Shown: piece after piece, positions 15,906 through 63,178 of the stretch
How positions within the stretch are numbered: position 1 is the first letter of the stretch
Layout: each line of letters begins with the position of its first letter
Source of the DNA: Coptis chinensis
Lineage: Eukaryota > Streptophyta > Magnoliopsida > Ranunculales > Ranunculaceae
Reading direction: 5' to 3'
Length of the DNA stretch: 64,000 nucleotides
Assembly: GCA_015680905.1 (NCBI GenBank)
Contig: CM027378.1
Location: forward strand, 90,115,501-90,179,500
Program-made: the position numbers and the translations under genes
The notes under the pieces: generated by a model
Told to the model about the DNA's origin: nothing
Database searches by the model: none
Seen by the model: the letters and a program-made list of their open reading frames with translations, nothing else

Positions 15906-16130
15906 ATGTTAGGTTCTACTACAGCCAGTGATTGAGACATCGGAAGTTGAAAAGGCAAAGCCATTGACATCAAGTTTTTCAGATGGAGTAAGCTGTCCCA
16001 TCTGTTCTGTAAGGTTATCCATGTTCTTCATGTTTGTGTTCCACCAAAATCTACCGCGATCAACAGGCTTGCTTTCACTCTTTCTGTGCTAGGTATCCCT
16101 TCTTTCTGACTGGACCTCCTGTGTTTCGCT
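15906..16130 (-). pseudogene. Displaced C-terminal segment of the HSF gene
   Basis: In the other minus-strand frame, directly following the conserved AHA region, the sequence reads [12 protein letters not shown], a TAG stop (16089-16091), then a segment with FWWNTNMKN and LTEQMGQLTPSEK, ending at a stop near 15917. This is the expected conserved A4/A5-type C-terminus with the hydrophobic nuclear-export-like LTEQMGQL. A single missing base near 16127-16130 puts it out of frame, and the TAG would end it even if the frame were restored. Confidence 0.8.
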
Positions 16131-31593: not shown

Positions 31594-31772
31594 GCTAGAA
31601 CAGAGATTTTGAACTAAACTGTGTTTTATAGGCACCAAATAAGTGTTCCTACAAGTTCCGGCAGTGTTCGTCACTGAAAAAGGTGATTTAATCAGGCACT
31701 CATCAAATTGCATTGGGCAACTTTCGGCCCAAGCTCGACAACTAAGTCCAATAACAATAGCCCAATACACCC

Positions 31773-32095
31773 TGTATGGGTCGTATACATGACCTAGGAG
31801 GTTAGTGGTGACAATGGGACCGGATGCGGTATAGTAGGGGGAAACAGGTTGCATAGGATCGATCCCAAGATCCCAACCGGCCTGAACTACCGCGAGATGT
31901 GGAGAGAGGGAGAGCGGAATCATAACCGCAAGATAACTGCCGCGATACGTGGAGAGAGATGAGAAAATGGAAGAAAGAAGATCGAGGGACAGGAGTGAGT
32001 GGTGGGAAAAAGAGAGGAGGATATAAAAAAAAAAGGGGGAGAGTGAGAGGAAAAAGAGACTAGTGAGTTTGTAGGTTATAATTTTTGTGTATACA
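31773..32095 (+). repeat. 5' LTR
   Basis: 323 bp, TG...CA ends. A GGATATAAAA-run near 32020 may be its promoter. Followed directly by the primer-binding site. Confidence 0.93.
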
Positions 32096-32098
32096 TTT

Positions 32099-32115
32099 TG
32101 GCGCCGTCTGTGGGG
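32099..32115 (+). other. Primer-binding site
   Basis: TGGCGCCGTCTGTGGGG starts three bases after the 5' LTR, the position and wording expected for tRNA-primed minus-strand synthesis. The tRNA is not assigned with certainty. Confidence 0.85.
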
Positions 32116-32129
32116 AACATAGGAGAAAA

Positions 32130-33560
32130 ATGGCCACTATAGCAAAAAGAAGAGTAGGAAGACCTAAGAAGGGAGCAGTCAGAGAAACTATTGAGGAAGT
32201 AGAGAGTGCTGAGATGGTAGGGGTAGGAGAGGAAGAAGTATCAGATGTGGCGGCGGACGCCACCAGACTTATGCAGGAGGAGATAGTTAGGTTAAGAGAT
32301 GAGAATGATGAGTTGAGAAAGGAGAAGGAGATTACACGGGGTGGAACGGAACAGGGGGATCCCAGGGGCAGTGAAGTGGAAGGGGAGAATGTAGAGTGCC
32401 CGCTACCGGACGTCGAACCAACAGTGGGCATCACTTTAGGGGTAGTTCAGGCTATGATTGAGAAAGATAGGGAAGTGAATCGCGTAGCAGAAAGAGTGAA
32501 CCAGAGCGCGGCACAAAAGGAGGTAGCGAGCCTCAATAAAAATCCGCTGGCAGATTCAATATGGAATTCCGAAGTACCTAAGAGGTTCTCCCAGCCTAGG
32601 TTTGAACGGTATGATGGGAAAGGGGACCCCACTAATCATTTGCACCATTTTCGGCAGCAGATGCCGTTATGGCAAGAGAGTAAGTATGATGGGCTCCACC
32701 AGATGATGTTCCCGCCACCTTAAGGGGAGCCTCGGACCGGTATTACCGGTTGGCTTCATGGAGCATTAAAGGGTTTGAAAGAGTGGAACGCACATTTGTC
32801 GATCACTTCATTCACCGTAAGAGAAGGGTGGTTGACATCGCGCTCTGCTCAACATCAAACAAAGGGCCGCAATCATCATTGAGGGAGTTTTATGCAGATT
32901 CAAGGAGGAGACGGCGAGAGTGGAAAGTCCGATGAACATACGGGCGGTCATAGCCTTCCAAAGATGGTTTAAGATCGGGAACCAGAGTTCATGAGTCGGT
33001 ATCTAAGATTGAAATTACTACGTTGCATGCTCTGTATCCGAAGGTAGAGAAATACATACGATATGAGGATATAATGCGAGAACGACAAAGAAAGGAAACG
33101 AAAGAGGGTCGGGAAGGCAAAGTCAAGGGGAGGTTGAGAGAGATGATCGAAAGGGTAAAGGTAGAATAGAGCGACAGAGAGAGATGATCTTACAGAGGGG
33201 AGAACCGAGGGCCAGAGAGGACATGAGATCAAGGCAGAAGAGAGGTGCGAGAGAGGAAGCCATATTGGGAAATGGAACAGACTCCTCTTAACCGACCATT
33301 AGAGGAGATCTTGTCTCTAATTAAGGAGCACCAATATTATGAGGGGTCGCGGAGTACCCCAAGGGAGATAGAAGGGAAACCATTTTGTGAGTATCATCAA
33401 ATCAGAAACCATGCCACGAACGAATGTTATGCCTTGAAGTGGTTAGTAGAGAGGATGATTGAAAAAGGAATGCTCAGAGAGTTTGTTGCTGAAGTGCGTC
33501 AAGCCGAGAGAGTGCCAGCTCCGGCTAGGATTTTGGGTACGATCAATGTCATATTTAGTG
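32130..33560 (+). pseudogene. gag of the Tat element, frameshifted
   Basis: Begins at ATG 32130 (MATIAKRRVGRPKKG) with an AT-hook-like basic start and a coiled-coil acidic region, then the capsid part (RFERYDGKGDPTNHL near 32600) running to a stop at 32720. It continues in other frames to about 33180 and again from 33245, where a Cys/His motif (CEYHQIRNHATNEC) resembles the nucleocapsid knuckle of Tat gags. At least two frameshifts break it. Confidence 0.82.
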
Positions 33561-34200
33561 GAGAGACTCTGGGGAGGAATGCACATAGGGACAAGGTAAG
33601 AAAGACATCAAGCCTACGACAGGTGAATGAGGTGGTGAGTGTACCGCGGTTAATTAGTGGAGCCGCGACGGCCGACGGAATCATTATGTTCACCCCAAAG
33701 GATTTGGAGCCGATAATTTCGCCGCATGAGGACACCTTGGTGATTACCATAGCAATGGGAAATTATCTAGTTCGGAGGGTGTTGATAGACTGCGGCATTT
33801 CAGTTGATTTGTTGTTTAAAGGGGCCATGGAGGAGATGAGCATCGACAGAAACCAGTTGAAGGTTCCTCAAACCAACTTGTATGGGTTCAATGGCAGTAT
33901 GACAGAGCCCATAGGGGAGGTAAAGCTGCCGGTGACCGCAGGTCCGGCGACGGTATTCACTAGGTTCATGGTGGTGGATTCTGAGTCGCAGTATAACGCA
34001 ATTTTAGGGAGAAAATAGATTCATGAAATGAAAGCCATTCCATCGACATATTACCAACTAATCTGCTTCCCCACGAAGGGGGGAACATATGAAATCAGGG
34101 GGGATCAAGTGGCAGCGCAGAACATCCATCAGATCACGGTGAAGAGATTGGTCCGAGGAACCAAAGGGGAAGGGCCATCTCAGGAACAAGGATTCGCGTA
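33560..34200 (+). pseudogene. Aspartic protease region of the Tat element, broken
   Basis: The frame 33245-34018 ends with a protease-like fold: VLIDCGISVDLLF at the active site, where the usual Asp-Ser/Thr-Gly reads Asp-Cys-Gly, then YGFNG and NAILGRK. A TAG at 34015-34017 replaces what is normally a Trp codon in this motif; the conserved IHEMKAIPSTY follows in frame. Probably inactive. Confidence 0.72.
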
Positions 34201-34219
34201 GCAACTACAGGAAGCGGGA

Positions 34220-36343
34220 GTGACAAAAGGGTACGAGCCGCCGTTGGGACCGAAGACGTTGGATACGATTGAAGTAGTTAACCTGGGAGTGAGAGTTGAA
34301 GATAAATTTACATCCATAGGGACTGACTTGCCAGAAGAATGGAAAAAGAAGCTGGTGCGGTTCTTAACAGAAAATTCAAGTGTGTTCGCATGGGCGATTG
34401 AAGATATCGCGGGTTTAGACCCAGAGTTTGCATGTCATCATTTGCACATGAATGAAAGTGCAAAGCCGGTTAGACAAAAAATGAGAAGTTTACGGCCCAA
34501 ATATGCTGAGGCTATTCGCGAGGAGGTTGTACGGTTGAAAGGGGCGGGGATAATAAGGGAGGTAGAATACACAGAATGGTTGTCCAATGTAGTCGCGGTC
34601 ACGAAAAAGAACGGCAAGGTCAGAATGTGTGTTGACTTCACGGACGTGAACAAGGAGTGCCCAAAAGATTGTTACCCAATGCCGCGGGTGGATGAGTTAG
34701 TGGACAGAACTGCAGGATTCAAAGTGTTATCTTTCATGGACGCGTCCATGGGGTATAATCAGGTCGCTATGCATGGCCCGGATCAGGAAAAGACCACGTT
34801 CGTGGTGGAGGGCGGCACGTACTGTTACACCAGGATGCCCTTTGGTTTGAAAAATGCTGGGGCGACATTCCAACGATTAGGAGAAAAAATGTTTCAAGGG
34901 AAGATTCGAAAGGGGATGGAGATATATATTAATGATATGGTAGAAAAGAGCATGTCGGAGGAGGAACACTTGGAAGGTCTTCAGGAGACTTTTCATATAT
35001 TGCAGGCACATAAACTGAAACTCAACCCCAAGAAATGTACTTTTGGGGTAACTTCTGGAAAGTTCTTGGGTTACATAGTTACACACCGCGGCATAGAGGC
35101 GAATCCTGAACAAATCAGATCGCTGATAGAAATGTCGTCCCCTCAAAATGTAAAGGAGGTGCAAAGTTTAGCAGGGAGAGTCGCGGCCCTTAATCGTTTT
35201 ATTTCGAAGTCATCGGATAAATGTCGACCATTGTATCGATTATTGAGGAAAACACAAGACTTCAAATGGACCGCGGAATGTGAAGAAGCCTTCCAAGAAT
35301 TGAAGGATTATCTAGGGAAGGCGCCTTTATTGTCGCGACCATAACAGGGGGAGAAACTGTATTTGTATTTGGGGGTTTCGGAGTACGCGGCGAGTTCGGT
35401 CTTGGTGCGAGTTGTTGACAAAGTAGAAAAGCCAGTGTACTTTCAAAGCAAGACCATGTTAGACGCAGAGACCCGATACAGCCGAATTGAAAAATACGCT
35501 TTGGCTTTGGTATTTTCTGCCCTAAAATTGAAACCATATTTCGAGGCGCATTCAGTGGTAGTAATAACAAATCTGCCTCTCAAGCAGGCACTGAGGGCAG
35601 AAAAGTCAAGAAGAATGCTAAAATGGGCGGTAATGCTCAGTTGCAATGAAATTCAGTACCAAATCAGAACCGCAGAAAAAGCACAAGCAATGGCGGAGGT
35701 ATTGGCAGAGTTCCCAACCAATGACCCAACGTGGGGAGAGGAGATGGTAATGGACCATGAAGGAGAGCCTAACCGCGACCCATTGGACCCATGGGATTCA
35801 CAGAACGGTTGGAGAGTTTTCGCGGATGGCTCTACTATAGATACAGGAAACGGAATAGGCGTAGTCCTGGTAACTCCTGAGAATACTAGGCTGGAGTTAT
35901 CAATGAAACTGGGATTCGCGGCTTCAAATAATGAATCAGAGTATGAAGCAGTAATAGCGGGTTTAGATTTGGCTCAAGATCTGGGCGTGAGCGAATTATC
36001 TGTTTATTCTGATTCTAACCTGGTGGTGTGCCAAGTGAATGGGGGATTTGTGGCTCGTTGCCCAAGGATGGCAAGATACTTGGAGGTCCTACAAAGGAAA
36101 GCGAGCAAATTCAGTAAGATTAAGTTTACCCATTTGAATCGCGGAGAAAATAGACATGCCGACGCATTTGCTTATGTTGCGGCGGTATTACCAGGAACGG
36201 AAGGGCGATCTATTGAAATAAAGGTGTTGAACAAGCCTAGTACCACGGAAGTAGAGAATGTTTGTCTTATCACGGAGATTGATCCTGGTTGGATAACGCC
36301 CATCAAGACTTTCCTGATGGGGGTAGAGATTGATAACACATAG
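34220..36343 (+). pseudogene. Reverse transcriptase, RNase H and archaeal-type RNase H
   Basis: First frame 34220-35344 is the reverse transcriptase: FTDVNKECPKDCYPMPRVDE, MPFGLKNAGATFQRL, then the catalytic box as YINDM (about 34924-34938), the second Asp of the YxDD motif group having become Asn. A TAA at 35342-35344 interrupts the following RNase H (TRYSRIEKYALALVF), which continues in the same frame. A linker leads to a second RNase H (about 35810-36190) with FADGS, NNESEYEAVIAG, VYSDSN and ENRHADA supplying the acidic residues. This dual RNase H defines the Tat lineage. Confidence 0.9.
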
Positions 36344-36355
36344 GAGAGGTGTAGA

Positions 36356-37500
36356 ATGGAACAGGTGAGCCAAAGATACACTTTAATAGACGGGAGTCTA
36401 TATAGAAGAAGTTTCGGCAGACCAATGTTAAAATGCATAGGTCCGCCGCATGTTCAGGAAGTGTTGGCTGAAATGCACGAAGGGGATTGTGGAAGTCATT
36501 CAGCGAGGAGAACAACCACACACCGTTTGATTTCGCAGGGGTACTTTTGGCCACACATGAAGAGTGATGCCATAGAATATGCCAAAAGATGTGAAAGATG
36601 CCAGAGGTTTGCACCGGCGATACATCGCCACCGAGCCGTTACCGGTGTGCTTTCGGCCGGGCCGTTCGCCATGTGGGCAATGGATATAGTTGGACCGCTG
36701 CCCATGGCAAGCGGTAAAAGGAGGTTTATGTTAGCGGCAACAGATTACTTTACCAAGTGGGTGGAGGGAGTGGCGCTGCAACAAGTCAAGGAAGAGAATG
36801 TGAACAAATTTCTATGGGAGAATATCATTTGCAGATTTGGATTGCCACATACAATCGTCGCAGATAATGGGACACAGTTTACTAGGAAGAAAGTCCGGAA
36901 TTTCCTTCAAGTGTTCAAAGTGAAGCAAGGGTTCTCAGCTCCCTACAATCCGGAGGGGAATGGACAGGCCGAAGCTTCAAACAAGGTCATTACGGATAAC
37001 CTTAAGAAAAAGCTGGAGGAGCGAAAGGGGCATGGGCTGAACAGTTACATCATGTGTTGTGGGCATATCGAACTACACCAAGAACATCCACTATCGAATC
37101 ACCGCTCGCGAATGGCGTCGGGGGTAGAAACCGCCATTCCAAAGAAAATGATAGTATCCACGACCGTAACGCAGGTATGGAAAGTGGACTGAATGAGAAA
37201 ATATTAGCCGCGGATTTGAATCTTGTTGAAGAGAGAAGAGAGAAGAGAGATAGCCCGTATTCGGTTGGAGGAATACCATCGGACTCTGCAGACGATGATA
37301 AACGAAAGTGAAGCCACCGGAGTTTCAAGGTGGGGACTATGTGCTGCGACGAAGTTACTCCCCGCCACCAAGAAAGAAAACGACGGGAAGTTGGGGCCAA
37401 ACCGGGAAGGTCCATATGTCATCGATAAGAAGGGTACATCCGAACTTATGGATTACTGCATCACGACGGAGAAAAGATAAAGAGGTCGTGGAATATCAGA
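36356..37500 (+). pseudogene. Integrase of the Tat element, C-terminus frameshifted
   Basis: The frame 36356-37192 has the HHCC zinc finger (GDCGSHSARRTTTHR to CERCQRF), then the DDE core: Asp in AMDIVGP (about 36680), Asp in VADNGTQF (about 36862) and Glu in GNGQAEASNK (about 36970). Near 37040 the frame shifts: the expected continuation is spread over three frames to about 37500, including YRTTPRTSTIESPLA and a GPYVIDKK block. All three catalytic residues are present, but the C-terminal domain cannot be made from one frame. Confidence 0.88.
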
Positions 37501-37670
37501 ATGTTGAAAAAGTTCCATGTCTAGGACCTTTGTTTAGTCTTTTCGTATTTGATAGCGCACTCTTTGTATTGTTATTATTATGACTATGAAATAAACATGC
37601 ACTTCTTCCAATCGAGTTAGCAGTAGATAATAGAAATCAAATAAGGGACGGATATAGTTGCCACAACAAG

Positions 37671-37942
37671 CTTCACAGCGGTTCAAAGAGAGCGGGGAAG
37701 GGAAAATCCCTTCGCGTACTGTATGTCCGAATCTATCTGGGGGCAACCTTGACTAACTTCACAGCTATACAAAGAGAGAGTGGGCGGGGGAAGAGCCCTT
37801 CGCGGACTTCATGTCCGAATCAAACCTGGGGGCAACTCTGACTAGCTTCACAGCTATACAAAGAGAGAGCGGGGGGGACGAGCCCTTCGCGGACTTAATG
37901 TCCAAATCAAACTGGGGGCAACCCTGAATAGCTTCACAACTA
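37671..37942 (+). repeat. 86-89-bp tandem repeats, left part (3' region of the Tat element)
   Basis: Units start at CTTCACA (37671, 37757, 37846, 37932) and contain CCCTTCGCGGACT, GTCCGAATC and TGGGGGCAACCC. The array is cut by the CACTA-like insertion at 37943 and resumes at 46357. Confidence 0.9.
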
Positions 37943-38330
37943 CACCATAACAGGCTATTTGCAACGGCAAAAAAGCGTTGCTAATAATTTTTGCAACGTT
38001 GCAAATATGGCGTCGGTAAAGTGTTGGAAATATTTGCAACGCTTAAAAAGCGTTGCAAACAGAAATTCAAAGCGTTGCAAACAGAAATTTCACAAACGCT
38101 TTTTAAGCGTTGGTAATTTGTTAAAATTTTTACCAACGGTTTTTAACCGTTGCAAAGTTGTTAGTTAATTTAAAAAAAAATAATTTAAAATTCGTTTGTA
38201 ACGGTTATAAAGCGTTGCAAATTTGTTAGTTAATTTTTAAAAAAAATAATTTAAAATTCGTTTGTAACGGTTATGAACCGTTGCTGATGGGTTGCTAATA
38301 AAAAAAAAAAAATCTCATTTTTTGTAGCGA
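37943..38330. repeat. Left TIR and subterminal repeats of the CACTA-like element
   Basis: About a dozen direct and inverted copies of GCAACGCTT/AAGCGTTGC-type words, the kind of array bound by CACTA accessory transposition proteins. Confidence 0.75.
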
Positions 38331-38487
38331 GACCAAATTAAACCAATTTGGTGGTATAACACATTAATATCGGTTCCCCTAGGAGTAATAAAGTTTTGTG
38401 ATCAAACCGCTATCACAACGCCTATTTCCACTTACAGTTCAAATCAAATTCATCACAACATCATCACTACAACAAGTATACACAAAG

Positions 38488-38727
38488 CTATATACCCGAA
38501 CCACCAAATAACCCCAAATAATAAGATCTCATACAGACATACCACTTGACAACAAAATGCAGAAAAACAGAAACACATTCAAAAATAAACAAAATCCAAA
38601 CCTGCTGTGCTTGAACATATTCATCAAATCCATCCAAAGTGCAATCACGATCAAATACACTTTTCGGAAACACAACATTATTATCATCCCACTCTTCCTC
38701 AATCAAAGGCACCATAATGCTCCCCAT
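38488..38727 (-). pseudogene. Captured first-exon-like fragment, unknown gene
   Basis: Minus-strand frame starting MGSIMVPLIEEEWDDNN and continuing with FDRDCTLDGFDEYVQAQQ up to a possible donor CAG/GTTTGG near 38602. Coding-like up to the donor, intron-like after it. I do not recognise the protein. Confidence 0.4.
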
Positions 38728-39994
38728 TCTTCTACCCCGTCACTTTTCCTAAACACCCTACACAGCACAAATGCATCCTTCCCCACTGCAAATTTCAGTA
38801 ACTAGATGGTTATAATCTTACATTGCACAAATATGACAGGCTAAAGAAAATATTAAGCCAAAACTGTAAACTATCTAATGAAGCCAAATTTGCAGTGGGA
38901 AAAAAAAAGATGAATCCAAAATTTGAGAAACAAATATAAGGAAAGACAAACATAATAGGTATAGAACTGAGATACAGCTCAACGACTAATCCAATAAATT
39001 ATTTGCTGAAAAGGAATACACTTAAATAAACATATGGAATTCACGTCGAGTTTGATATATAATTGGTGATGGTTTTCGTGTTCATTCAAGTGACTGAAAG
39101 AATATCAACCAATTTGCATTCTATTGAACTACATTTCATTAATTAATCAAAACGCAAAGAATACATAAACAATCACAACAAGAAGCCCAACAATGAAAAC
39201 AATAAAGATGGTTTACCTTATTGTACAAAATAACTCCCGATGAAAGCAATATGTAGACTAGTAAGTACAAATCGTTAACAATAGTGGTTTCCCAATCATT
39301 GTGTCCCTAGTTTAGTGAATAACTTCTCCACTTGAAACCGGACATTAAGATTCCATAATCTATCCTCAATCACGTATCAAAGTACATCACCAACCAATGA
39401 CCCTTCCAGTTTACTAGTCGATTGTACCAAGCATTTATAGTAACATGTTAACCTGAAAAAAACAATATATATATACTAGAACATAAGTACCAAGGTAACA
39501 AAAAAATGATGGATCATATTCAACACTTAAAGTACGGATCTTGAAACAAAAGAAACAATAATAATATTACATTCTATGTATATATATATATATATTTCCA
39601 CATCACATTATAGATGAAACAACGGTATAGTTCAGGTGTAGAAAACCTCATCATGCCGTCATCGTTGTTTTGGTTTGAGGTTGCTCTAGCTTCGAACTCT
39701 CCGAATCCCTAAAACGCTCACGAGAGAGAGAGAGAGGTATACAATCTTGTGTTAGGCACAGAGAACAATACTAGCGAATACCATTTTGTGAAGGTGAAGT
39801 GGGGCTCACCCATCCCGGGCGGAAACTTTTGTTTTGGCAAATAATGGATGGTGATATCTCGGTGTTATTACATCATGCAGTCCACCTCAGGCACCTCTGC
39901 GACTGCACATGACCCCGTAACCAATGTAAGAACAAAGATACATATTTCTCGCATACATATTTCTCTCCACCATGCCCCTACTCCTTTTTTGGTG

Positions 39995-40232
39995 TTAATA
40001 GGAAACGCATGCCAGAAAAATTATACATTACACTATTATTAACACTGAAGAGAAGTCTGAAAAATTTATTGGAAAATTTAAGCTGAAAAAATTCAAGTAT
40101 TGCACGGAAAAAGGGACTCACCAAACAGAGAAGTCCGAGCTCCAAAGTGAGATGGAGTCGTTCCTAAAGGATGCTACTTTGGCCAAAGGCGATAGTGAAA
40201 GTAAAACCAAAAATTTCAAATTTCTTCCACGG
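39995..40232 (+). pseudogene. Exon-like fragment, unknown gene
   Basis: Open plus-strand stretch flanked by an AG (TTAATAG/GAAACGC) and a donor (CCACG/GTATGT). It reads a Lys/Glu-rich peptide including EEKSEKFIGKFKLKKFKY and SEMESFLKDATLAKGDSES. Opposite in strand to the other fragments. Not recognised. Confidence 0.3.
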
Positions 40233-40593
40233 TATGTAACTTATGAAATGCGGTTCTTGAGCACCTTGAACTTCGGTCGGTGGTAAATTTGGCTTGTCCT
40301 TACCGCACATCCAAGCGGGATTGCCGCACTATCATATGCCATGGCTGCTTTAGCAAAGGTCTTCATTGGGCTGTTGACTCTCATCTATAGACAAATCAAC
40401 CACCTACGAGAAATGCTTCGAGTCATGAAATATAATGGACATATTACAAGATATCGTTGTAAATGCAGGAAATGAGACCGATCGACTTAGTTACGGAAAA
40501 GAAAAAGTAATCCTAGATGTCTAAATTCCATATAATGCTATCTTTCATAAATTCTTTCAAAAAGATTGCAATCGTGGAAAGAAAATGAAAGTG

Positions 40594-41031
40594 TTAATTG
40601 CGATAAAGGCACCGACCTTCCATATCCATGTCGAGAATCTGCGGTGAGTGGGATGTATCTTCATTTGCATACCGAACTTCGAAGGTCTTGACGGCTAACA
40701 ACTTTGCTTTCGGGACCGAGTATGCTTTGTTCGATTCCATTAGACACTTTCTTTTCATCCATTCAAAATATTCATTTGCAATATTTTTTAAACCGGAACT
40801 CGGTGGCCCTTCTAGGCGAATATAGTCGTACATTATTTCCTGCCAAGAAGTGTGTGCTTGTGGTTGAGTTAGAAATACGGTATTCTTTCCTTCCACAAGT
40901 TGAGCTCCCGGTACATCTGCATTGAACAACCAGTATAGCCCATGGATCCCGTACCTCGCAATCGAGTTGTCTTTACCAATAACTCCTGAAGAGAATAGAG
41001 GGGGGTTTGCTTTTGGGTCGTTGACTCGAAC
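40594..41031 (-). pseudogene. Captured rhamnogalacturonan lyase C-terminal exon fused to another fragment
   Basis: After an acceptor (TTCCAG/GTTCGAG) the frame reads VRVNDPKANPPLFSSGVIGK, GIHGLYWLFNADVPG and MYDYIRLEGP, the conserved C-terminal domain of plant rhamnogalacturonate lyases (pectin-cleaving, polysaccharide lyase family 4). It then runs without a stop into a second, unrelated peptide (IANEYFEWMKRKC ... TFEVRYANEDTSHSPQIL) for about 65 residues to the stop at 40594. The junction near GPPSSG looks like an in-frame fusion made during capture. The second partner is not recognised. Confidence 0.75.
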
Positions 41032-42110
41032 CTGGAACAATAATGACACTCTTAAATCAGTTTATAATGCATGACTAGACCTATAGCCCACACTATTTTT
41101 TGTCGAATTTTCAAACATACTTGCAATTCAGCCCGCGATTCTTGGATGCAAGTGCTACTCGAATGTGTACTTCAACTTTAGAAATGTATGTGTTCCTATC
41201 TGCTATACTTCAAAACAAACCACGGGAGATTTTTGTTTTAGTCAGTCAAAGTCTATAGATTAGCATTCATTAAAATACATCATACAGGAGAGCATGGTAA
41301 CAGTTCAAAGTTACAAGTTTAGCAAGCTATACTTCCAAATTTTATTTTCTGTTTTACTAACTTACTACAATATATTAAATGATATTACTTCCTGATGCAC
41401 CCAAAATAGAATTCAATCCCAAGTCATCCATTCCTCAAATAGTCAAACCAAAATTTCATGACAAAATAATTAAAAGAACTAACAAAGAGCATACAAGTCC
41501 TAGAGAACTGGTTTACAGTTCAACCTTCAGTTCTCTATATGTACCGGTGGTAAGCAAGTGCAGCAACAAATTGTCTAACCCAAACATGTGCTCTACAAGG
41601 TTTATGCAATCTGAACTTAATAAATCCACATTGGCTAAAGTAGACAATCAACCCTTTTGTAATCAGCGGCATAGCAACCCATGAACAAATTCCAAACCGC
41701 TTAACACAACATAAATAATGCAAACCAAAGAAACTTAATCATTTTCAAACTAGTTCACACAAATTTGAAACCAATTACAACACAATGCTAAAACCTTGCA
41801 TCCGTGACAGACACCAACAAACCAACACACTTAATCTTATTACACAAATGACCATGAGATAGATGCTTAATTTGATGGGCCTATCACCTTCACATATAAC
41901 AGACTAGGAAGCAGGAACACTATATGAACAAGGGAGCAAACTCTTATACACAGTACCAATCCTTAGACAGCCTCCCCCTCACCTCATATATATATATATA
42001 TACAACATAAAATATTCTATGTACATAATATATACACGATTGGCTCATACAGATATGCATGATGATAGTCCAAAGTTTTATCCATTAAAATAAATGTTAA
42101 TAAGTAAATT

Positions 42111-42415
42111 ACCTTGTGAATATACCAATTGTAAAGGAACTGGCAAGACAGTTGAATCATCCCCAATGCTGTTTTTCATTATCACATCATCTGTGAAAAG
42201 TAAAGTTGAGATTATAAAACAGATAAGAAAAACAAAAGAGCAAGGAACGTAGAGCAAATAAAATAATTAAGGTACTGTAACTAACCTGAATGATTCATAA
42301 CTCCAGAGACGCTCTCATAAGACTGTTCAGCAACAACACTGGATCTAAAATCAGCAATAGCTTCTTCTAACAATGCTGATTTTTCATCTTCGTTACACTG
42401 TTCTACGCACATTTA
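42111..42415 (-). pseudogene. Captured two-exon fragment, unknown gene
   Basis: Exon A (about 42415-42288) reads CNEDEKSALLEEAIADFRSS and ESVSGVMNHS up to donor TCAG/GTTAGT. Exon B (about 42189-42112) reads IMKNSIGDDSTVLPVPLQLV up to donor AAG/GTAATT. Codons join across the intron. Not recognised. Confidence 0.45.
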
Positions 42416-42987
42416 CTGCAGCATACTATACATATTCCATCATGAGCATTGAGAATTACACAATAGCATTGATCTGTTTCTGTCATGACCTGCAACAAGA
42501 TAGTGATTTTATTCATTGATTAGAGAGAGAGAGAGAACAAAACATCCTTAGCAACCAGTCCAGAAGAATGACATAATAGAAGAACACTCAAGTCGCTTAC
42601 ATGAAAGGATAAAATATAGTACTTCTTCTGGGAAAAGAAAGGGGAAGAAGGGGCAAGGCATCTTACTAAAATATAGTACCTTGGAATCTAGTTGAATTAT
42701 CATATTCATAAAAACTTAAGAGAATCTATTTGCAGTGTACCTACAGACAGGCACTACTTACTAAAAAGTCGAACCACAGAATAGGAACACATTATTCAGA
42801 GGTTATCAAAAACTTATTCTTATAGTTTGGCGGTGAGCTCCAAAGAAAGAATGATGAAACAAGTAGAATTCAAATCGACAAATGCAAAATGATGTTCAGA
42901 GAGTGACCAAATTCAAGGTTTCCTTACATATCAAGGTTCATGCAATTTAGTAAAAGGCGGTAAACTTAAAAGGACATCACCCGAATA

Positions 42988-43027
42988 CTGCGTCATCTAA
43001 AACATCATCATGAAGAAGGCTTGCCAC
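42988..43027 (-). pseudogene. Captured polyprenyl diphosphate synthase exon fragment
   Basis: After a pyrimidine-rich acceptor (GCATCAG/GTGGCA) the frame reads VASLLHDDVLDDA, the first aspartate-rich motif of long-chain (solanesyl-type) polyprenyl diphosphate synthases, which bind the allylic substrate through Mg2+. It stops 13 residues later at a junction with non-homologous sequence. Only this motif-bearing piece is identifiable, so the call rests on one short but distinctive block. Confidence 0.6.
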
Positions 43028-44473
43028 CTGATGCACAAAAAAAGGATCTTGTTAATTTATCTTAAGGAAAATTAAACTAACAGATAGAAAGAACACAAAG
43101 TTAAATAATATCATGTCAGTAGATGCTGCTGAGATTTTCTATTTCATATGGACCCCCTCTCAATTAAGAAGCCAACATAGACACTAAGATGTTCACTAAT
43201 GGATTGCACTGATACAGCCTAATCCAACTCAACCTACATCCACAGATTCCATTTATCTTATAAATATCAAATAACTACTACACAACTCCCAACCTACCAA
43301 TATGAGTTTAGGTTCCACAAAGACATGGACTATTATATTTGAGCGACTTTTAAGTATCGGAAGTTACCGTGCAACTGTTTATATTTCATAATGTACGTGT
43401 GACTTTCAATTCAATATGTAATCTACTAATCTCTCTCACCCTATTGTGGCAACTGATCCTGCTTACAAGTTTCTTACATGCCATCATCTGAATAAATAAA
43501 CTGACAATAGAAATACTTAATTGCATTTCTTAGTTGATGCGTTAGTCTCACTTGTATAGAGAACTTTCTTGTTTGAAATTATTTTTCAGCTCAGATGTGA
43601 TAATCATAGACAAAGATTTGGAAACCACATCAACAAATAAACTCCAAACGTCATTACATCTTACATCTGAGTGGCTTAACAAGCAAAAACATGAATTAAA
43701 TAAGTTCCAATTTCTACTAATCTTCACTTAGTGTGGCACGATTATATTACTCTATTAGAGTAATAACCATAATTCTCTTGTGATAGCAACTGAGTTTAAC
43801 TTCTCACCCTCTGTTATTTATAATCGTCCTCATTGGGCTCTATGTCACCGTCTTCGATCATGATGCAATGACTACTGATCGAGTACAGAAAACAGATACC
43901 AAGTATCACTCACGTCCATGTTTGAGTTCTTAAATCTAAAATTTGGCTACCTAATGTTCGATATATCTAACCTAAATATTCAACAATGGGTAAGTACTTC
44001 AGCCATGCAACGCCAAAACTAGCAAACCAATGAGATTTATGTCCAAGAAAAAGTAACATACCGAAGTGTTATTCTTTCACTGGCCCAATTGTTTACCCAA
44101 AATTTGGCGTGACGCAGCGAGAACTGAGACTGCTACTGTACAAGTAGTCACTTTCCTCCCTACGTGGAGAGAAAATAAGGGAGACGATTAAAAACTGTTT
44201 CCCATATGTTCACACATAAAACTTTTTGTCTGCAACGACAGTGATGCACGTACTCTGTACAATAGTGCAGAATTAGTCATGTTTACCGACTAATGTTACT
44301 AACAGGATGGTAATCATTTGAACTGTAAAACTAGTACACTAGTAGTATATCTTTTACTAAAAGCAAAGTTCTAAAGCATTTGTACATAAATTGAGGACAG
44401 ATGACTGCTAGATTACCATTGACAAAAAATATATAAGCAAGTAATAAAATAGGATATGACCTCATTCTTGGAT

Positions 44474-44906
44474 GGGAATGAGTAGTTCAACAAGTAGTCT
44501 GGGTGTTGAATTGTTGATCTAACCAGTTTCTGCACTACCACAATAACAACCAAACAGGGGTTAAAAATTTACAATATACAAAAGCAGGTCAAATATTGTA
44601 ATGTCCAACCAAGCCCACCTGTTGCGGGGATTCGGCTTCTGTAGAGCTCTCAGACAGTTGTTTGACTGCTGCACATTTTGTGATACCCCGAACCATTGTT
44701 GCAAAAAACTGAATGCAGAAAGAGCAAAAAGTTGTAAAACGTGCCCAGCCCATAAAGAAGAAGCTAATTATTATTAGTTACCTTTAAATCTTCCTCCTTT
44801 GAGAATGTTCTAAGAAAAGCAACTAAGTCATCGACTGATCTCTTTACAGGATCACTCATACTAGTTCCCATCTTTGTATCATGAACAGTCAAGAAGTCTT
44901 TCATGA
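44474..44906 (-). pseudogene. Captured small-RNA-degrading nuclease (SDN) N-terminal fragment
   Basis: Three exons on the minus strand: about 44906-44782 ([35 protein letters not shown]), 44708-44620 (FFATMVRGITKCAAVKQLSE) and 44540-44474 (KLVRSTIQHPDYLLNYSFPS), with GT/AG borders and matching phases. This order and wording matches, from memory, the N-terminal region of plant SDN exonucleases, which trim mature miRNAs 3' to 5'. The DEDD exonuclease domain is absent. It directly follows the RlmN-like exons, joined within an intron. Confidence 0.68.
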
Positions 44907-44940
44907 AAAAATAAATTAGTTGGGGAAAAGTAATACACAC

Positions 44941-45751
44941 CATGAAAACGATGTTGCGTATCTGACACAAGTGAGAGGCATGGACCAATTGTTCCACAAT
45001 TTCACCTGAAGTCAGATTATTCTTAAAACCCATGCTCCCAGTTGCACAGAACTTACAGCCCATTTTGCATCCAACCTGTTAAAAGACAAACAAACAAACA
45101 AAGAGGCCTTTCATCTACTGAAACAAGTTTCTTGCAATCCATATGAAGAAGTCTTTATTCGTGTCAGCAGAACATATAGCCATAGAGCAAACATACTTGG
45201 GATGAAATGCAGAGGGTAGCCCTTGGACCTCCGGGACGGGGCTTTCCACCGTATGTTCCCAAACGATTGTCATATCTCATAATCACAGCTTCCACATACG
45301 CCCCATTATAGTAATAATAATAATAATACAGTCATATCTCATAATCATGCACCGATAAGCTAACTAAAAGTTTGATTGTTTTAATTAATTCAAATAAACC
45401 AAGATTAGTGAAAGAGTAAGTACCTGTAACTTAACAAGAAGTTTAGTGGTAACATTATCGTTTGATTCCAAAACAGAATCAACAGTTGTAGTCGTGGACT
45501 TAAATTTCGAAGTGAGCAAAGCATGTGCACGTGCAGGCAATGATGGTACTTCACTTAATTCACAATTAGGATTCTGAATAACGTATCTGCAAAAATACAC
45601 CAAAATTAAGTATAAATAAATAATGGGAAGAGAGTGAAATAGTTAGTGGGTTTTCTTACTTCCATATGAGTGGAATGAAATTGGTGTTGATTTCGGCTTT
45701 CACGAATTCCTTTTTTATTGAACCGAAATCGAAAACCGAACGGAATGCCAT
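44941..45751 (-). pseudogene. Captured RlmN-like radical-SAM methyltransferase, first four exons
   Basis: Exons 45751-45660 (start MAFRSVFDFGSIKKEF), 45586-45424, 45307-45197 and 45075-44941. Together they give the N-terminal domain and the radical-SAM cluster motif CKMGCKFC (CxxxCxxC) followed by [11 protein letters not shown]. The full enzyme methylates adenine in rRNA and tRNA using a 4Fe-4S cluster and S-adenosylmethionine. Only about 165 residues remain. The acceptor before exon 3 is missing: an ATT microsatellite occupies that spot. The frame from exon 4 continues into SDN-derived sequence, so the fragment is chimeric. Confidence 0.8.
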
Positions 45752-45935
45752 TTGATTATTACGATGGCAGCTCAAATTTTTCCCCCTTTATCACCCTTTA
45801 GTCCTTGCTTTTGTGCCATCTTCACCACACCAACAAGAACCTACCACATTAACAATTCTTCACTGTCATTCATAACTAAACATGTTCTTGATTCATTTTT
45901 AAACAAAACAGAACAAAATCAATTACAAATTAAAG

Positions 45936-46048
45936 TAAAGTTTGAAACTTTACTTTAATTTGAAGAGAAAAACTAAAAATTTGAGGAGTCGAGAATTTGA
46001 AACTTTACTTTAATTTGAAGAGAGAAAACTAAAATTTGAGGAGTCTTG
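45936..46048. repeat. 57-bp tandem duplication
   Basis: TTTGAAACTTTACTTTAATT followed by GAAGAGA...GGAGTC occurs twice in tandem with small differences, upstream of the RlmN-like first exon. Confidence 0.8.
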
Positions 46049-46356
46049 AGAATCACGAGATCTATTTTTCAATTTTAGGGATCTGCGGTGAGAGAGAGGA
46101 GAGAAAGAAAGTTATGTTTTATAGTTAGACCCGAAATAATAGAAGCTGGCGATTTTTTGGTTTCACTCTTTTGAAATTTTAATTTGTAACACTTCTCAAA
46201 CGCTTTGTAAGCGTTAGCAATTAATTCTTGAAATTCATCAAATAAAGCAACGCTTTACAACATTGCTAACGCTTATGTAGCGTTGGCAACTTACTAACGG
46301 TAAATAAAAGCGTTGCAAATCAAAAAGGTGCGTGTTGCAAATATCCTATTATGGTG

Positions 46357-46680
46357 CTGGAGAGCCTTTCGGTGGACTGTAAGCCCGAATCAAACTGGGG
46401 CAACCCCGACTAGCTTCCCCAAACTATACAAAGAGAGAGCGGGGAAGAGCCGCTTCGATGAAAGTCCGAATCAAAATGGGGGCAACCCCGACTAGCTTCA
46501 CAACTATACAAAGAGAGAGCGGGGGGGAAGAGCCCTTCGCAGACTGTATGTCCGAATCAAACTGGGGGCAACCCGGACTAGCTTCACAGCAATTAAAGTG
46601 AGCGGGGGAAAGAGCCCTTCGCGGACTGTATGTCCAAATCAACATGGGGGCAACCCTAGCTAGGGTCACAACTAACTAAG
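46357..46680 (+). repeat. 82-86-bp tandem repeats, right part
   Basis: Continuation of the array at 37671-37942, with unit starts near 46414, 46496 and 46582 and the shared GTCCGAATCAAA and GGGGGCAACCC words. The first unit next to the insertion is shortened and diverged. Confidence 0.88.
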
Positions 46681-46996
46681 TTTGCAAATGAAAGGGATGC
46701 AAATAACTTGGTTAAAATAAAGGTAGCTCCTGGAAAGATGATGAAAAAGATATTGAATCAAAGTTCCGTATAGATCCATGGCTTCAACGCATAACGAATC
46801 ATAAGACAGCCGAAATCGGAAAGTGTGACAGATAGTAAATTACAGTGCAAAAAGAGTACAGCGCAAGTTGATTGACACATACTACGCAAATGTAATGTGT
46901 CGATGAAACATTTGTCCAAACACATACAAAAGATAATTGTTCAACACCGAAATTACAATCACAAAGAAATCTGCAAAGAAAGAAATCCGACATGTG

Positions 46997-49264
46997 TTAC
47001 TGCTGAGGATCAGTATTCAATTCTTCATGAGAAATATTTTCCTCTTCACCGACAGTGGTGCTGATGTCTACGTTCATTTCCGCTGGAGAAGGGTCAGCAT
47101 TAGTAATGGGAGTAGTCACATCATGGGTAGTGGTCTCGGCAGCTTCAAGATGCACAGTCGATGATACCACGGATGGTGTATCTGTACCGGGAGGAGGCAC
47201 TGGAAGAAGTCGACCTGCAGTGCTAAGCTGATCGAGTTGTTGTTGTAATTCACGAGCAATCTTCTTCGCAGCGAGACTCCGGAATCGCTCCGCGGCTTCT
47301 TTAACGGCCTTGTCTACAGCAGCTTGAGTGGCAAGTTTCTCCGTCTCTTTGAGGCTTTCCAGTTTAGAATTGACCCCCGCTACGTAGTCACGATGTTTGT
47401 CCTCAGCCACCTGGAGCTCCTTGTGGACCTTGACTACCGTGATCCGCAAATCGTCCCTATCCTTCTCCAACTTGGCATATTTTGCTTTCCAACCATCAGG
47501 GCCATGTATTTCCTGCTTCGCCGCCTCCAAATTCTCCACGGTGCTGGTAAGGCGCGCAGCACATAGCCAATATCTAGACTCAGCTGCAGAGACATATTGG
47601 GTATAAAGGGTAGTCCAAAGGATAATGATCAAGTAAAGTTAATAAAACACACCTTTTCCCATCCAGTGTAAATGGAGGCCCTATGGGAAGCGACGGTACC
47701 AGAATCTCCATAGGCTTGATCCCGAGGGAGATGAGAGCTGAAAAAGAAAGAGGCAGAAACAGCTGGATTTTCCAAAGCTGAGTCTCGCGTAGTGACATCG
47801 CGATCCCTAGCCCTGAACTTGGGATGCCAAACTTTGACAGGGCCAGATGTTAAAGGACCAGCTGAAAAGGAATCCTGTCTGGGGCAGCGCGAAGATATAA
47901 CAGACCGCGAAGGTTCATTGCGGCCAGTGGTATGAGGAGGAGCAGTAGAAGTAAGTTTGGCCTTTTTGGTGGGAGGGCTCTTGTTTGAAACTTTGACAGG
48001 CCCATCTCCATCAGAGTCGCTGTCCCAAAGCTTGTACTTGTTCACATCCATAGCGGTAGCAGACGGGGGAGTAGAAGTATGAGTAAAAGTCTAGGCAAAA
48101 TCGTCTTCCCACTCGGCCACACGAGAGTACGAAGGAGTGGGGGTGTCCGCAGTAGTATTCTTAGTTTTAGCAGCAGCGGCACGTTGGGCAACGGCTCGTG
48201 AATGAGAGATTTTGGTGGTATAGTTGAAAGACTTGTGGGCCGGACGTTTTCTTTTTTGAGGTGGGGATGGCTTGGGCTTTCTTTCTTTGGGGGGCGGCAG
48301 ATGATAGAAGGGGCATTGGTATTTGCCAATGTCTTTTAGAGAAGGGTCGAGTAAAAGAGGAGTGGCTTTTTCCGGATCAATGCCGAGGACGTCGCACTGT
48401 GCACTCCCTAGTTCGCGAAGGGATTGGAAAATTTCTGAGTAAACGCCGTTGTATATCTGGGATCGCGAGTCGGTCTCCAACCTACATCACCAACAATAAA
48501 GACAAATTAAAGACAAGTGAGACATAAATACTGCGACTCAAAACGGCTTACTTACCACTTGTTAGGAAATGGAGATGCCTCAGAGAAACTTTCGAAGGGA
48601 GGTCCGCGGATAAAAAACTACCGGACACATACAATGGATACTGGTGCCACACCTTGTCAAAAGTGGTGATGTGAAGAATAAAAGACTTTTTTTGTGGACG
48701 AGTGCAGAAGGATTGATATCCCACACTCCCAAGTTTAGTGCTTTTCTTTATATAGAAGTGAGCAAGGATATCGCAGAATTGGATTTTGGGGGAGTGAGTC
48801 TCATTGTAGTGGTTGGCGGCATACATAACACGCCAGAAGTTACCTATGTCTTGGCACGGAGGAATGTTGAAATGGTTACAGACCTCGACGTCAAGAAGAG
48901 TCAAGGGAAAACGCAAACCGGCCGCTATCTGTCCTACAGTAGCGACAAGATAACCGGGGCGCGATGTTACCAAGTGAGGAAAGTGGGTGATGCCAGACAC
49001 GTGTTCTAGAATAATGTCACTAGGTATGCCATAAGCAGCTTTAACAGCATCTAGGTTGGGTCTGCGGTAGTAGGATGGCGGGGGAGGCAGAGAAGGTTTC
49101 CTCCCGGAAGTAGAGGGAACAGCGATAGGCTCAGTAGAATCAGAAGGGGATTCAAATCGGTCCACGAAGTGGTGACTAGATCTAGGGGTAGAAGACACAG
49201 ATTTATCGGATTTGGTGGAGGAGGATTGGGTGGCTGAGGTAGCCTCCAATTCCGATACAGACAT
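46997..49264 (-). pseudogene. Antisense spliced gene of the Tat element (Transposase_28-like)
   Basis: Starts at MSVSELEAT (49264). Exon 1 runs to 48552, intron 48551-48482 (GTAAGC...TAG), exon 2 from 48481 to about 47640 (donor AAG/GTGTGT), exon 3 from about 47570 (acceptor GAG/TCTAGA) to the stop at 46997. Exon 1 has a Ser-rich N-terminus and a domain with GYLVATVGQIAAGLRFPLTL and QDIGNFWRVMYAANHY that resembles the 'putative gypsy-type transposon' family (PF04195). Exon 2 is basic and Ser/Pro rich; exon 3 forms a long coiled coil with an acidic tail. One in-frame TAG (48091-48093) interrupts exon 2. Tat elements are known to carry antisense ORFs here; the function is unknown. Confidence 0.75.
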
Positions 49265-49852
49265 GATGGAATCGGTGCTACGAGGGGAGTTTACAAAAAG
49301 ATAGATATGCAATCTTAGAAAGGAAGAAAGTGAGGAAGCAGCACCCTCAAAAGCGAATAAAACAAATAATGAGAGGAAAGGAAAACATATTAAAGGGGAA
49401 GACAAACCTGTAACGAGAGAGAGCCAAGGCAATAGAGGTCAAGAACACAAACCGTGCTGGAGAGCTACCGGAGGAAATAACAGGGGGAAGAAGTGGGAAG
49501 AGTTTGAAGAAAAGGAAGTTGAAAAGATGGTGAATGTTTGCTGTTTTCGGGGTTTTGAGAGAAGAGAGAGGTTTGAGTGGGATTTGAAAGGGGAAGGGGG
49601 CAAAGGGTATTAACCAACAAAAGAACCAAGGAAAGGGAGACACATGGAGTCTCGATTTTCGAAGATTCAAAGTACGAGGTGCGTGCGCCGTATTTTCAGG
49701 TGGCAATACAGAGGGAACACGTGGGACACGTGCTGGGAGAAAGAAGATAGGGGGACAGAGTAACAGGTTTAGGAAAGAGAAGTATACCGCGAAATGTGTA
49801 TGAGATGAGAAATGTTAGTTCTCGGCCCATTTGTTGTTCGCGGACCATCAAT

Positions 49853-49867
49853 AAGGCCGAGAGAGGG
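49853..49867 (+). other. Polypurine tract of the Tat element
   Basis: AAGGCCGAGAGAGGG ends four bases before the 3' LTR. Confidence 0.7.
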
Positions 49868-49871
49868 CATC

Positions 49872-50193
49872 TGTATGGGTTGTATACATGACCTAGGAGG
49901 TTAGTGGTGACAATGGGACCGGGTGCGGTATAGTAGGGGGAAACAGGTTACATAGGATCAGATCCGCGGTATCCCAACCGCTCTGGAACTGCTGCGAGAC
50001 GTGGAGAGAGGGAGAGCGGAATCATAACCGCAAGATAACTGCCGCGATACGTGGAGAGAGATGAGAGAATGGAAGAAAGAAGATCGAGGGACAGGAGTGA
50101 ATGGTGGGAAAAAGAGAGGAGGATATAAAAAAAAAAAAGAGTGAGAGGAAAAAGAGACTAGTGAGTTTGTAGGTTATAATTTTTGTGTATACA
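49872..50193 (+). repeat. 3' LTR
   Basis: 322 bp, matching 31773-32095 from TGTATGGGT to TGTGTATACA; followed by the target duplication CACCC. Confidence 0.93.
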
Positions 50194-60815: not shown

Positions 60816-63178
60816 ATGACGTCGGGCACGAGACTTCCGACATGGAAAGAAAGAGAAAACAACAAGAGAAGAGAGAGAAGAAGAAGAGCTATTGCAGCAA
60901 AGATATTTTCTGGGTTAAGAATGTATGGTAATTATAAACTTCCTAAACACTGTGATAATAATGAGGTTTTGAAAGCTCTTTGTAATGAAGCTGGTTGGAC
61001 TGTTGAAGATGATGGTACTACTTACAGAAAGGTAAATTTTTTTTCTCTCTCTTTGATTGGCGTAATTTAGCAGTTCATATTTAGTTAAATTTTTCCGAGA
61101 TTGATCAATTTTAACATGCACCGGGAGTTTCTGGCGCACGCTTTTTACGGATTTTTTTAGTTTGTTTTTCTACTTGTTCACATGGAAACTAGACATAAGG
61201 TGGACTGAGTAAAGTACAATAGTACCCTTCTTAAAAATTGAAAAGTCCAACACCTTATGTTTAGGAAGGGTAGTTTTGACTTTTGATATTCCTCTTCCAC
61301 CATGTGATCTTTTTACCTAAAATACCCCTTGATACGTTGGGTCACTTTTGTTAATGAAGAGAAATTATCGGATTGTGTAAAGTTGAGTTTTGGGGGATTG
61401 TAGTTGTCCTTTTTCTTTACTGATAGAATTAATGTTAAAAAATGTTAACAGGTTCCTTTGTTTATGTCATTGTTTAATCTGATAATTCTTTGTTTAGTCT
61501 GATAAGCGTGTAAAGATTAAAACCTGAACGTGGTCGGGGGAGAACGTGCTATTGGAAGAAACAATCGTTGACAAATTGTCGTTTGAACTAGGAATTTATT
61601 GCAATAATGCCACTTGCATTGTTTAACTAATACTCTAGTGTACGCTTTTCCCTTGCTCCCCAGTCTCTCATGGTTTGTGAGTTATTAAGTAATATGGTGG
61701 CGAATGTTGTTTTTACTGAACTTACTGGAAATGCTTACCTTTACATGCCATTTAGAAACTGTAGACTTTTTTGGATCCGTAGAGTTGTGGTATTTGGGAA
61801 AATCATGTCATGAGGTCAATTTGTTTGATAAGAGTGTATGCAAGGTCGTGGCTCTGTTTGCTTTGGATTCACTATACATCTATCACTAACTTGAATGAAT
61901 TTATATCTCTAGGGTATAAAGTTTCCTCATGGACCTAAGCATGGACTAAATGACATGGTTTTATCTATGCGACTTATTACTTGAGTGGCCTTGGTCGATT
62001 GATTTGTGGATCAAACGAGGCTTTTGTCACTCGTTGATATACAAATGCAGTGTAACTTGGTGTTGCATGGTCAGGGTTCAGACTTCAGAGTCGAGTTGTG
62101 CTTTAGTGTTTCTTTTACTAGAAAAATGTGTACAATTGAAACTTAAGGAATCTTTTCTGAAGATGTTCTAAAATATAAAACCTTGTATAGTTATATTCTC
62201 CCGTCATGCTTAAGAATATTGATAATGTATCAATGAAAAATTCCTGCTAAAACTTACCATAACAGAATAGGATTGTAAACGTGGTGTGGATTTGGCCTGC
62301 ATTGGTAGATAGTAGTTGATAGCAGATATGTTGCATCACTTAGTTACAAACTTATTAGGCTTTTGATATTTAATATTGATTTGTTTTCTTTAACCTTTGT
62401 TTTACAGGGGTGCAAGCCTGCAGAACCAATGGATATTGGGGGAGGTTCTGGTACTGTGAGTCCATGCTCATCTTACCGACCAAGCCCTTGTATTTCCTAC
62501 AACCCAAGCCCAGTTTCATCTTCATTCCCAAGTCCTGCCTCCTCTTCTTATGCTGCCAATGCCAAAGCTACCGCAGATGGCATTTCCCTTATCCCATGGC
62601 TGAAGAACCTCTCCTCTGCATCATCTTCAGCATCATCAGCCAAGCTACCACAGCTTTACATTCCGAGTGGTTCAATCAGTGCTCCTGTTACCCCTCCATT
62701 GAGTTCTCCTACTTCTCGTACCCCACGGTTCAAGCCTGACTGGGAAGACACAACTGCTGGCCCAGCATGGGGTGGACATCGCTATTCTTTCTTACCCTCC
62801 TCCATGCCGCCAAGCCCAGGACGTGAGGTTTTACCTGACTCTGGGTGGCTTGCAGGGTTTCGAATGCCTACTGGTGGACCTACCTCTCCTACATTCAGTC
62901 TTGTCTCCTCAAATCCATTTGGGGGCTTTAAGGAAGAGGCATCAGCAGGAGGGGGTTCTCGCATGTGGACTCCAGGCCAGAGTGGAACATGCTCTCCAGC
63001 TATGGCTGCTGCCTTGGATAATAATGCAGATGTTCCAATGTCATCAGGAATGTCAGATGAGTTTGCATTTGAAAGCAACACAACAGGACTTGTAAAGGCT
63101 TGGGAGGGAGAGATTATCCACGAAGAGTGTGGATCAGATGATCTGGAGCTCACTCTTGGGAGTTCACGAACCAGGTGA
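60816..63178 (+). CDS. BEH4: BES1/BZR1 homolog transcription factor, BEH4-like
   Basis: Exon 1 60816-61031, intron 61032-62407 (AAAG/GTAAAT ... TTACAG/GGG), exon 2 62408-63178; 328 residues. Nothing is broken. The N-terminal 90 residues are the bHLH-like DNA-binding domain ([40 protein letters not shown]); the intron falls after YRK, the family's conserved site. Then come a Ser/Pro-rich stretch with BIN2-type phosphorylation spacing, the 14-3-3-binding-like [15 protein letters not shown], a PEST-like region, the [12 protein letters not shown] and EFAFESN blocks and a C-terminal EAR-like LELTLG. BES1/BZR1 factors bind E-box and BRRE sites in the nucleus and carry brassinosteroid signals; BIN2 kinase inhibits them. 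BEH4 fits best among the homologs, from memory. Confidence 0.92.

Follow-up and report, generated by a model that had tools for sequence, protein, structure and literature searches.

How CACTA transposons that hold pieces of several host genes gain this DNA is still disputed. A locus in Coptis chinensis bears on this question. Within a 64,000-nucleotide stretch of contig CM027378.1 (positions 90,115,501 to 90,179,500 of the forward strand; assembly GCA_015680905.1), to which we refer in its full length as the window, a preliminary description made from the letters alone had placed an 8.4-kb insertion. It was described as a CACTA-like element that lacks transposase, lies inside a retrotransposon, and has collected exons from at least four host genes. 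We sought copies of this element and sources of its pieces in the host genome (936 Mb, which includes the window). The insertion is real, and the element is a non-autonomous member of a CACTA family, or Pack-CACTA. The whole is very probably best explained as a Pack-CACTA of a multi-copy family, in which the left 3.4 kb is common to transposase-bearing members and the rest comes from unrelated loci, with one step, the gain of a piece of an RlmN-like methyltransferase gene, that would have occurred by gap filling.

Results

The window element belongs to a multi-copy CACTA family

The ends of the element (Table 1) match in inverted orientation over 21 of 23 bp. Subterminal repeat arrays, a criterion of the CACTA superfamily, are present at both ends: among 200-bp stretches of the whole window, the density of AACGS/SCGTT peaks in those starting at 37901-38101 (6-9 each) and 46101-46201 (6-7 each), against a window mean of 0.4. 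A tandem array of about 86 bp per unit is present on both flanks. These features bear out an insertion of 8.4 kb with inverted ends, subterminal arrays and split tandem repeats, as first described.

The preliminary description had also proposed a genome search for copies with the same ends, and such copies exist. The leading 1,558 bp of the element have at least 82 matches in the genome, their own included, and at least eight other places span bases 1, 14 or 105 to 1558 at 90-94% identity. Twenty places were fetched for comparison as 10-kb stretches, and some of these loci may hold more transposase beyond the edge. The family tip, CACTACACCAT, is found at 18 of the 20; L023 has this tip with one substitution, and L020, a 10-kb stretch that has no family tip, is not an element. 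Identical 3-bp flanks, as expected of a target-site duplication, surround eight of the ten copies that have both ends in view (AAT, TTT, ATA, TTA, ATT, ATA, ATA and AAT). Two of these, L025 and L026, have common flanks and count as one site, which leaves seven independent sites. The flanks of L018 do not match, and those of L015 match at two of three positions by eye.

Pieces of a tnp2 transposase were detected by tblastn in eight of the 20 loci (L009, L012, L014, L019, L021, L022, L023 and L027); those of L019/L022 match Transposase_21 (E 4e-26), DUF4218, DUF4216 and Transpos_assoc. The window element has no match to five transposase pieces (tblastn, E<=1e-3), and the same five queries found no transposase piece in L011, a second full-length copy with TTT on both flanks. 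Together with the CACTA tips and 3-bp duplications of its relatives, this agrees with the original view of a CACTA-like element free of transposase. The window element would have been mobilised in trans by its transposase-bearing relatives, the autonomy of which is putative.

Another family member, L013, has CACTA tips and ATA/ATA flanks and contains an Hsp20 fragment at about 2051-2548 (Pfam E 8.5e-15). A separate interior part of L013 is 99% identical with L017.

The interior matches separate loci

Neighbouring modules within the element abut, with alignment overlaps of 0-7 bp. Since these modules match separate, unlinked loci on contigs C1, C2, C3, C4 and C6, and not one contiguous host region, the multi-donor origin put forward in the preliminary description holds. 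Host coding DNA with identifiable sources comprises the RlmN, polyprenyl diphosphate synthase and small RNA degrading nuclease (SDN) pieces. The SDN piece matches PDB 5z9x (Small RNA degrading nuclease 1; E 6.2e-14) and has genomic matches at C2:110.5 Mb and C4:23.5 Mb; the RlmN piece matches PDB 9p0p (E 7.5e-16) and 6fz6 (E 6.2e-14). A fourth piece, of a rhamnogalacturonan lyase, matches the Pfam CBM-like domain of polysaccharide lyase family 4 (E 2.9e-17). The synthase piece includes a 47-bp exon-like stretch that is weak alone (Pfam E 0.39; best PDB E 0.13), but each of its 27 PDB matches at E<=10 is a prenyl synthase, and the C1 locus has a longer exon, reading VASLLHDDVLDDADTRRGIGSLNYVMGNK, that matches polyprenyl_synt in Pfam at E 3.8e-8. 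The element stops after DDA. In the 1.3 kb that follows the C1 exon (L044), no additional synthase exon was recognised. The four minus-strand gene assignments thus stand as initially made. Part of the synthase module, window 43244-43323, also matches two places on C3 at 99%.

Not all of this DNA need have been captured by the window lineage. The lyase piece is also present in seven transposase-bearing loci (L009, L012, L014, L019, L022, L023 and L027) and in L011 and L026; it therefore joined the family before, or independently of, the loss of transposase in the window copy. More broadly, because the left 3.4 kb of the element, lyase fragment included, is common to transposase-bearing members, it need not have been an element free of transposase that collected the pieces in it. 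For the unknown stretches a Pfam search returned nothing. At least one of the stretches that the preliminary description assigned to unknown genes, at 38600-38740, recurs at 18 of the other loci fetched; rather than a capture, it may be the element's own exon.

The region 42131-42439 matches at least 15 other places and 42436-42666 matches C2:113924419-113924663, while two places on C8 hold parts of both. We also observed 42131-42439 and 42436-42515 as a pair, separated by about 280 bp, at five further places; they therefore derive from some other dispersed sequence.

An RlmN piece interrupts a single SDN exon

The most notable new observation concerns the RlmN piece. Its source on C6 is an RlmN gene with exons that extend past the captured part; the peptide of exons four and five of this gene has a Radical_SAM match (E 2.9e-7). 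In the element, the piece is 879 bp long and replaces 7 bp within an SDN exon. The exon is split in the window copy, L030, L031 and L011: after AAGAAGTC, TTTC followed by the RlmN piece stands where the uninterrupted loci have CTTCCAT, and the exon sequence continues from a run of C. L033 also carries the piece, its SDN-side junction not being matched by the search pattern used, and the RlmN piece is thus found at five places, window included. In L037 and L039 the SDN exon is uninterrupted; further SDN exons are present in both, and no right end was seen in the 3.46 kb compared. The exon is likewise without the RlmN break in L035 and L038, each of which has a family right end (TAGTT and TAGTG, respectively). 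For the copies on C3 and C6, the match extends only to the right of about 42997, and so they differ on the left; the left end of the C3 copy, sought in 501 bases, was not found.

By eye, the RlmN and SDN pieces retain most of their splice sites, in line with the earlier remark that introns were kept. One RlmN acceptor is CTATAATGG in the window copy and CTAGAATGG in the source gene and in four other copies compared. Mismatches between the RlmN piece and its source number 3 of 501 in exons and 17 of 356 in introns in a multiple alignment, and 18 in all by pairwise alignment; gap events of the multiple alignment, whose count takes in columns opened by other rows, were left aside. We do not claim purifying selection on the captured exons, as a diverged allele or a lost paralogue as source accounts for this pattern. 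At 45308-45355, adjacent to the exon, the five RlmN-bearing copies compared share an additional local repeat, about 17 bp long (TCATATCTCATAATCA), that is missing from the source gene; it is perhaps filler made during or after capture.

One genome still contains SDN forms without RlmN, forms with an RlmN piece inside the SDN exon, and the RlmN source gene itself, and we consider it rather probable that internal gap filling, not fusion of neighbouring elements, was the capture route for at least the RlmN step. By this route, a break or gap inside the element would have been filled by copying ectopic DNA, through gap repair or template switching, and the filled product would then have transposed. 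The element was multi-copy after capture, as seen in the full copy L011 and the five places with the RlmN piece.

Alternative explanations

Fusion of neighbouring insertions is the favoured route for Pack-CACTA elements in published accounts (PMC8903248 section 9; PMC13317346): two elements insert close together and lose their inner ends, after which the outer pair mobilises the DNA between. This model predicts captured DNA between former element ends, and it may suit the larger swap at 41355, where window-type and transposase-type members diverge. As the capture route we nevertheless regard it as unlikely. One SDN exon flanks the RlmN piece on both sides, with 7 bp of it replaced, and no terminal repeat or subterminal array is visible at either RlmN junction; this arrangement therefore fits internal gap filling better than fusion. 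One could also envision a decayed autonomous element, with gene pieces that are parts of a single host segment carried along. The left 3.4 kb shared with transposase-bearing elements would be in keeping with such a history, but there is no transposase trace within the 8.4 kb, and the modules that match loci on different contigs already contradict it. We give this scenario almost no credence.

A different question concerns the tips. The preliminary description took CACCA to be an unusual but real tip, and a literature search that covered few subscription papers returned no paper on a CACCA tip in CACTA transposons. Such a tip could be genuine if the transposase had cut 5 bp inside CACTACACC at both ends, with CTA/CTG as the site duplication. 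CACCA is similar to CACTA, and the outer loss is an equal 5 bp at both ends if the flanks are taken as CTA and CTG. This reading is nonetheless very unlikely, given that the other fetched element loci have a CACTA tip, 18 of 19 as CACTACACC, and that the tandem array adjoining the right end is short by about 18 bp relative to neighbouring units, which points to deletion or end trimming. The window copy reads CTGGA in place of TAGTG on the right and AACTA in place of CACTA on the left. Because its relatives carry CACTA tips, the family is CACTA and the window CACCA is that tip minus its outer bases. In short, the CACCA end is a damaged CACTA tip. Its outermost 5 bp are gone on the right; on the left the loss is 1-5 bp, a range that arises because the tandem array itself supplies ACTA. 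CACCA as a new tip type is not the best reading once the tips of relatives are compared. With damaged tips and a position within a long terminal repeat (LTR) retrotransposon, the window copy is probably immobile now.

A number of observations count against our explanation of a Pack-CACTA with a gap-filled RlmN step, or complicate it. The window copy is without an intact tip, and its flanks, CTA/CTG, match at two of three positions. The transposase frames of its relatives are split into several stretches. L035 and L038 miss 10 bp (TTTATCACCC) beside the RlmN junction, and their exon is out of frame before that point; the window copy keeps these 10 bp, and L035 and L038 are therefore sisters of its ancestor rather than its direct ancestor. 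Moreover, the right tip of L035 is TAGTT, and the left ends of both loci lie outside the view. The lyase piece is not among the pieces with a donor assigned. At C2:86.2, C3:98.7 and C4:66.1 Mb no gene was identified at the match, and transfer from these loci into the element, rather than the reverse, is what we infer; among them, the check for family tips covered L020. Finally, gap filling would be read from the junctions only, and the fusion model permits deletion of internal ends.

Divergence between copies

Identity between L011 and the window copy is 96.6% when gaps are ignored and 93.6% when they are counted. Mismatches affect 8.7% of CG-proximal, 10.5% of CHG-proximal and 1.15% of other positions, and indel events 3.3%, 4.2% and 0.75%, respectively; the site classes were set on the window copy, and these rates are hence biased. 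Of 597 differing columns, 486 have another difference within 3 columns, and of 94 mismatches that fall on CG/CHG cytosines or on the guanines paired with them, 52 are C>T or G>A. The likeliest source of these differences is base-calling error at methylated cytosines in the assembly, to which methylation-driven mutation may add. The frameshifts in L011, L031 and L033, and the percentages between copies, should therefore not be taken as age or decay. We had considered decay of the captured exons for the L011 frameshifts and set it aside, as the differences cluster at CG/CHG sites with indels. Many frame breaks are seen in the RlmN exons of L031 and L033 too.

Host retrotransposon and feature map

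The LTR-like repeat pair and the interrupted tandem array around the element support its nesting in an LTR retrotransposon. What was seen of this host is the LTR-like pair and open frames, and the Tat label given in the preliminary description is putative. Between pol and the 3' LTR-like repeat of this host lie long minus-strand open frames (46997-49438), which we take to resemble the antisense frames of some plant Ty3 elements. Elsewhere in the window, open frames at 16028-17116 and 62309-63178 are candidates for a heat-shock factor and a BZR1-type regulator.

Table 1. Features of the window element and its host retrotransposon (window positions)
Feature	Position	Strand	Remarks
Host LTR retrotransposon	31772-50193	+	repeat pair 31772-32095 / 49871-50193 taken as LTRs, 93.6% over 327 bp
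Left part of interrupted ~86-bp tandem array of host retrotransposon	37640-37942
Left terminal inverted repeat as preserved	37943-37965	+	flank directly outside is AACTA here, CACTA in relatives
Terminal module	37943-38786		open stretch GSIMVPLIEEEWDD.. shared with 18 further loci among those fetched
Left subterminal TTTGCAACGC/GCGTTGCAAA repeat array	37958-38290
Module matching C2:86198233 onward (L020) at 96.9%	38782-39613		missing from several family members
Module common to transposase-bearing members	39608-41355	-
Polysaccharide lyase family 4 domain III (rhamnogalacturonan lyase) fragment	40790-41033	-
Dispersed sequence	42131-42666	-	contains unknown exon 42281-42412
Two pieces matching one locus, C4:66061491-66062342	42666-42987		81% and 94%
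Polyprenyl diphosphate synthase piece (~40 bp exon and preceding intron)	42988-43323	-	source C1:59496929-59497278, 92.6%
Module matching C3:98746896-98747838	43317-44269		95.5%; no protein identified
SDN piece, three exons with introns	44267-44902	-
RlmN-like radical-SAM methyltransferase piece, four exons with introns, within SDN exon	44903-45781	-	source gene C6:8860618-8861484
Second half of interrupted SDN exon	45782-45899	-	reads ..VKMAQKQGLKGDKGG
Right subterminal repeats and right terminal inverted repeat	46193-46356
Right terminal inverted repeat	46334-46356		outer TAGTG gone
Right part of interrupted ~86-bp tandem array	46357-46700

Comparison with known systems

Tgm-Express1, a soybean CACTA element in wp, carries pieces of five unrelated host genes in which exons and introns are retained (PMC1947982). 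The number of donors, which the preliminary description had singled out as notable, is therefore not so, and that interpretation is, overall, partly supported. Like Tgm-Express1, the window element belongs to the CACTA superfamily and holds several unrelated gene pieces with introns. Tgm-Express1 differs in that it is 5.7 kb long, lies in a gene intron, and has been shown to yield spliced chimeric transcripts (PMC1947982), whereas the window element is known from sequence alone and, unlike its soybean counterpart, has one piece inside another.

The Pack-CACTA and other Pack-TYPE elements of Arabidopsis, rice and maize are, like the window element, non-autonomous and contain coding DNA from several loci, with maize Pack-CACTA elements holding the most loci (PMC8903248). 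For Pack-PIF and Pack-Mariner, the same work distinguishes sub-groups that have an extra captured piece from others that lack it, and comparable CACTA cases are stated (PMC8903248 sections 9, 10). The authors of that work favour neighbour fusion, whereas the RlmN junctions in the window fit gap filling better. Captured host pieces are also found inside CACTA elements of Chenopodium, though in the cases cited they lie beside transposase coding sequence, as with 80-bp AP2 fragments (PMC8978399). Gap filling and template switching with short microhomology have been proposed for capture by single-copy Pack-TIRs (PMC8277862); these are animal elements, but the route is similar to that suggested here for the RlmN step. 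Our literature search, which covered few subscription papers, took in gap repair with CACTA capture, sequential acquisition and parental elements, and no title among those it listed describes the window case.

Multi-gene CACTA elements such as Tgm-Express1 and those of maize are thus already known, and the window element adds one with an unusually legible history. As forms without and with the captured piece, and the source gene, are present in one assembly, junctions can be compared base by base against both models of capture. The remaining members of this family are readable by the same approach.

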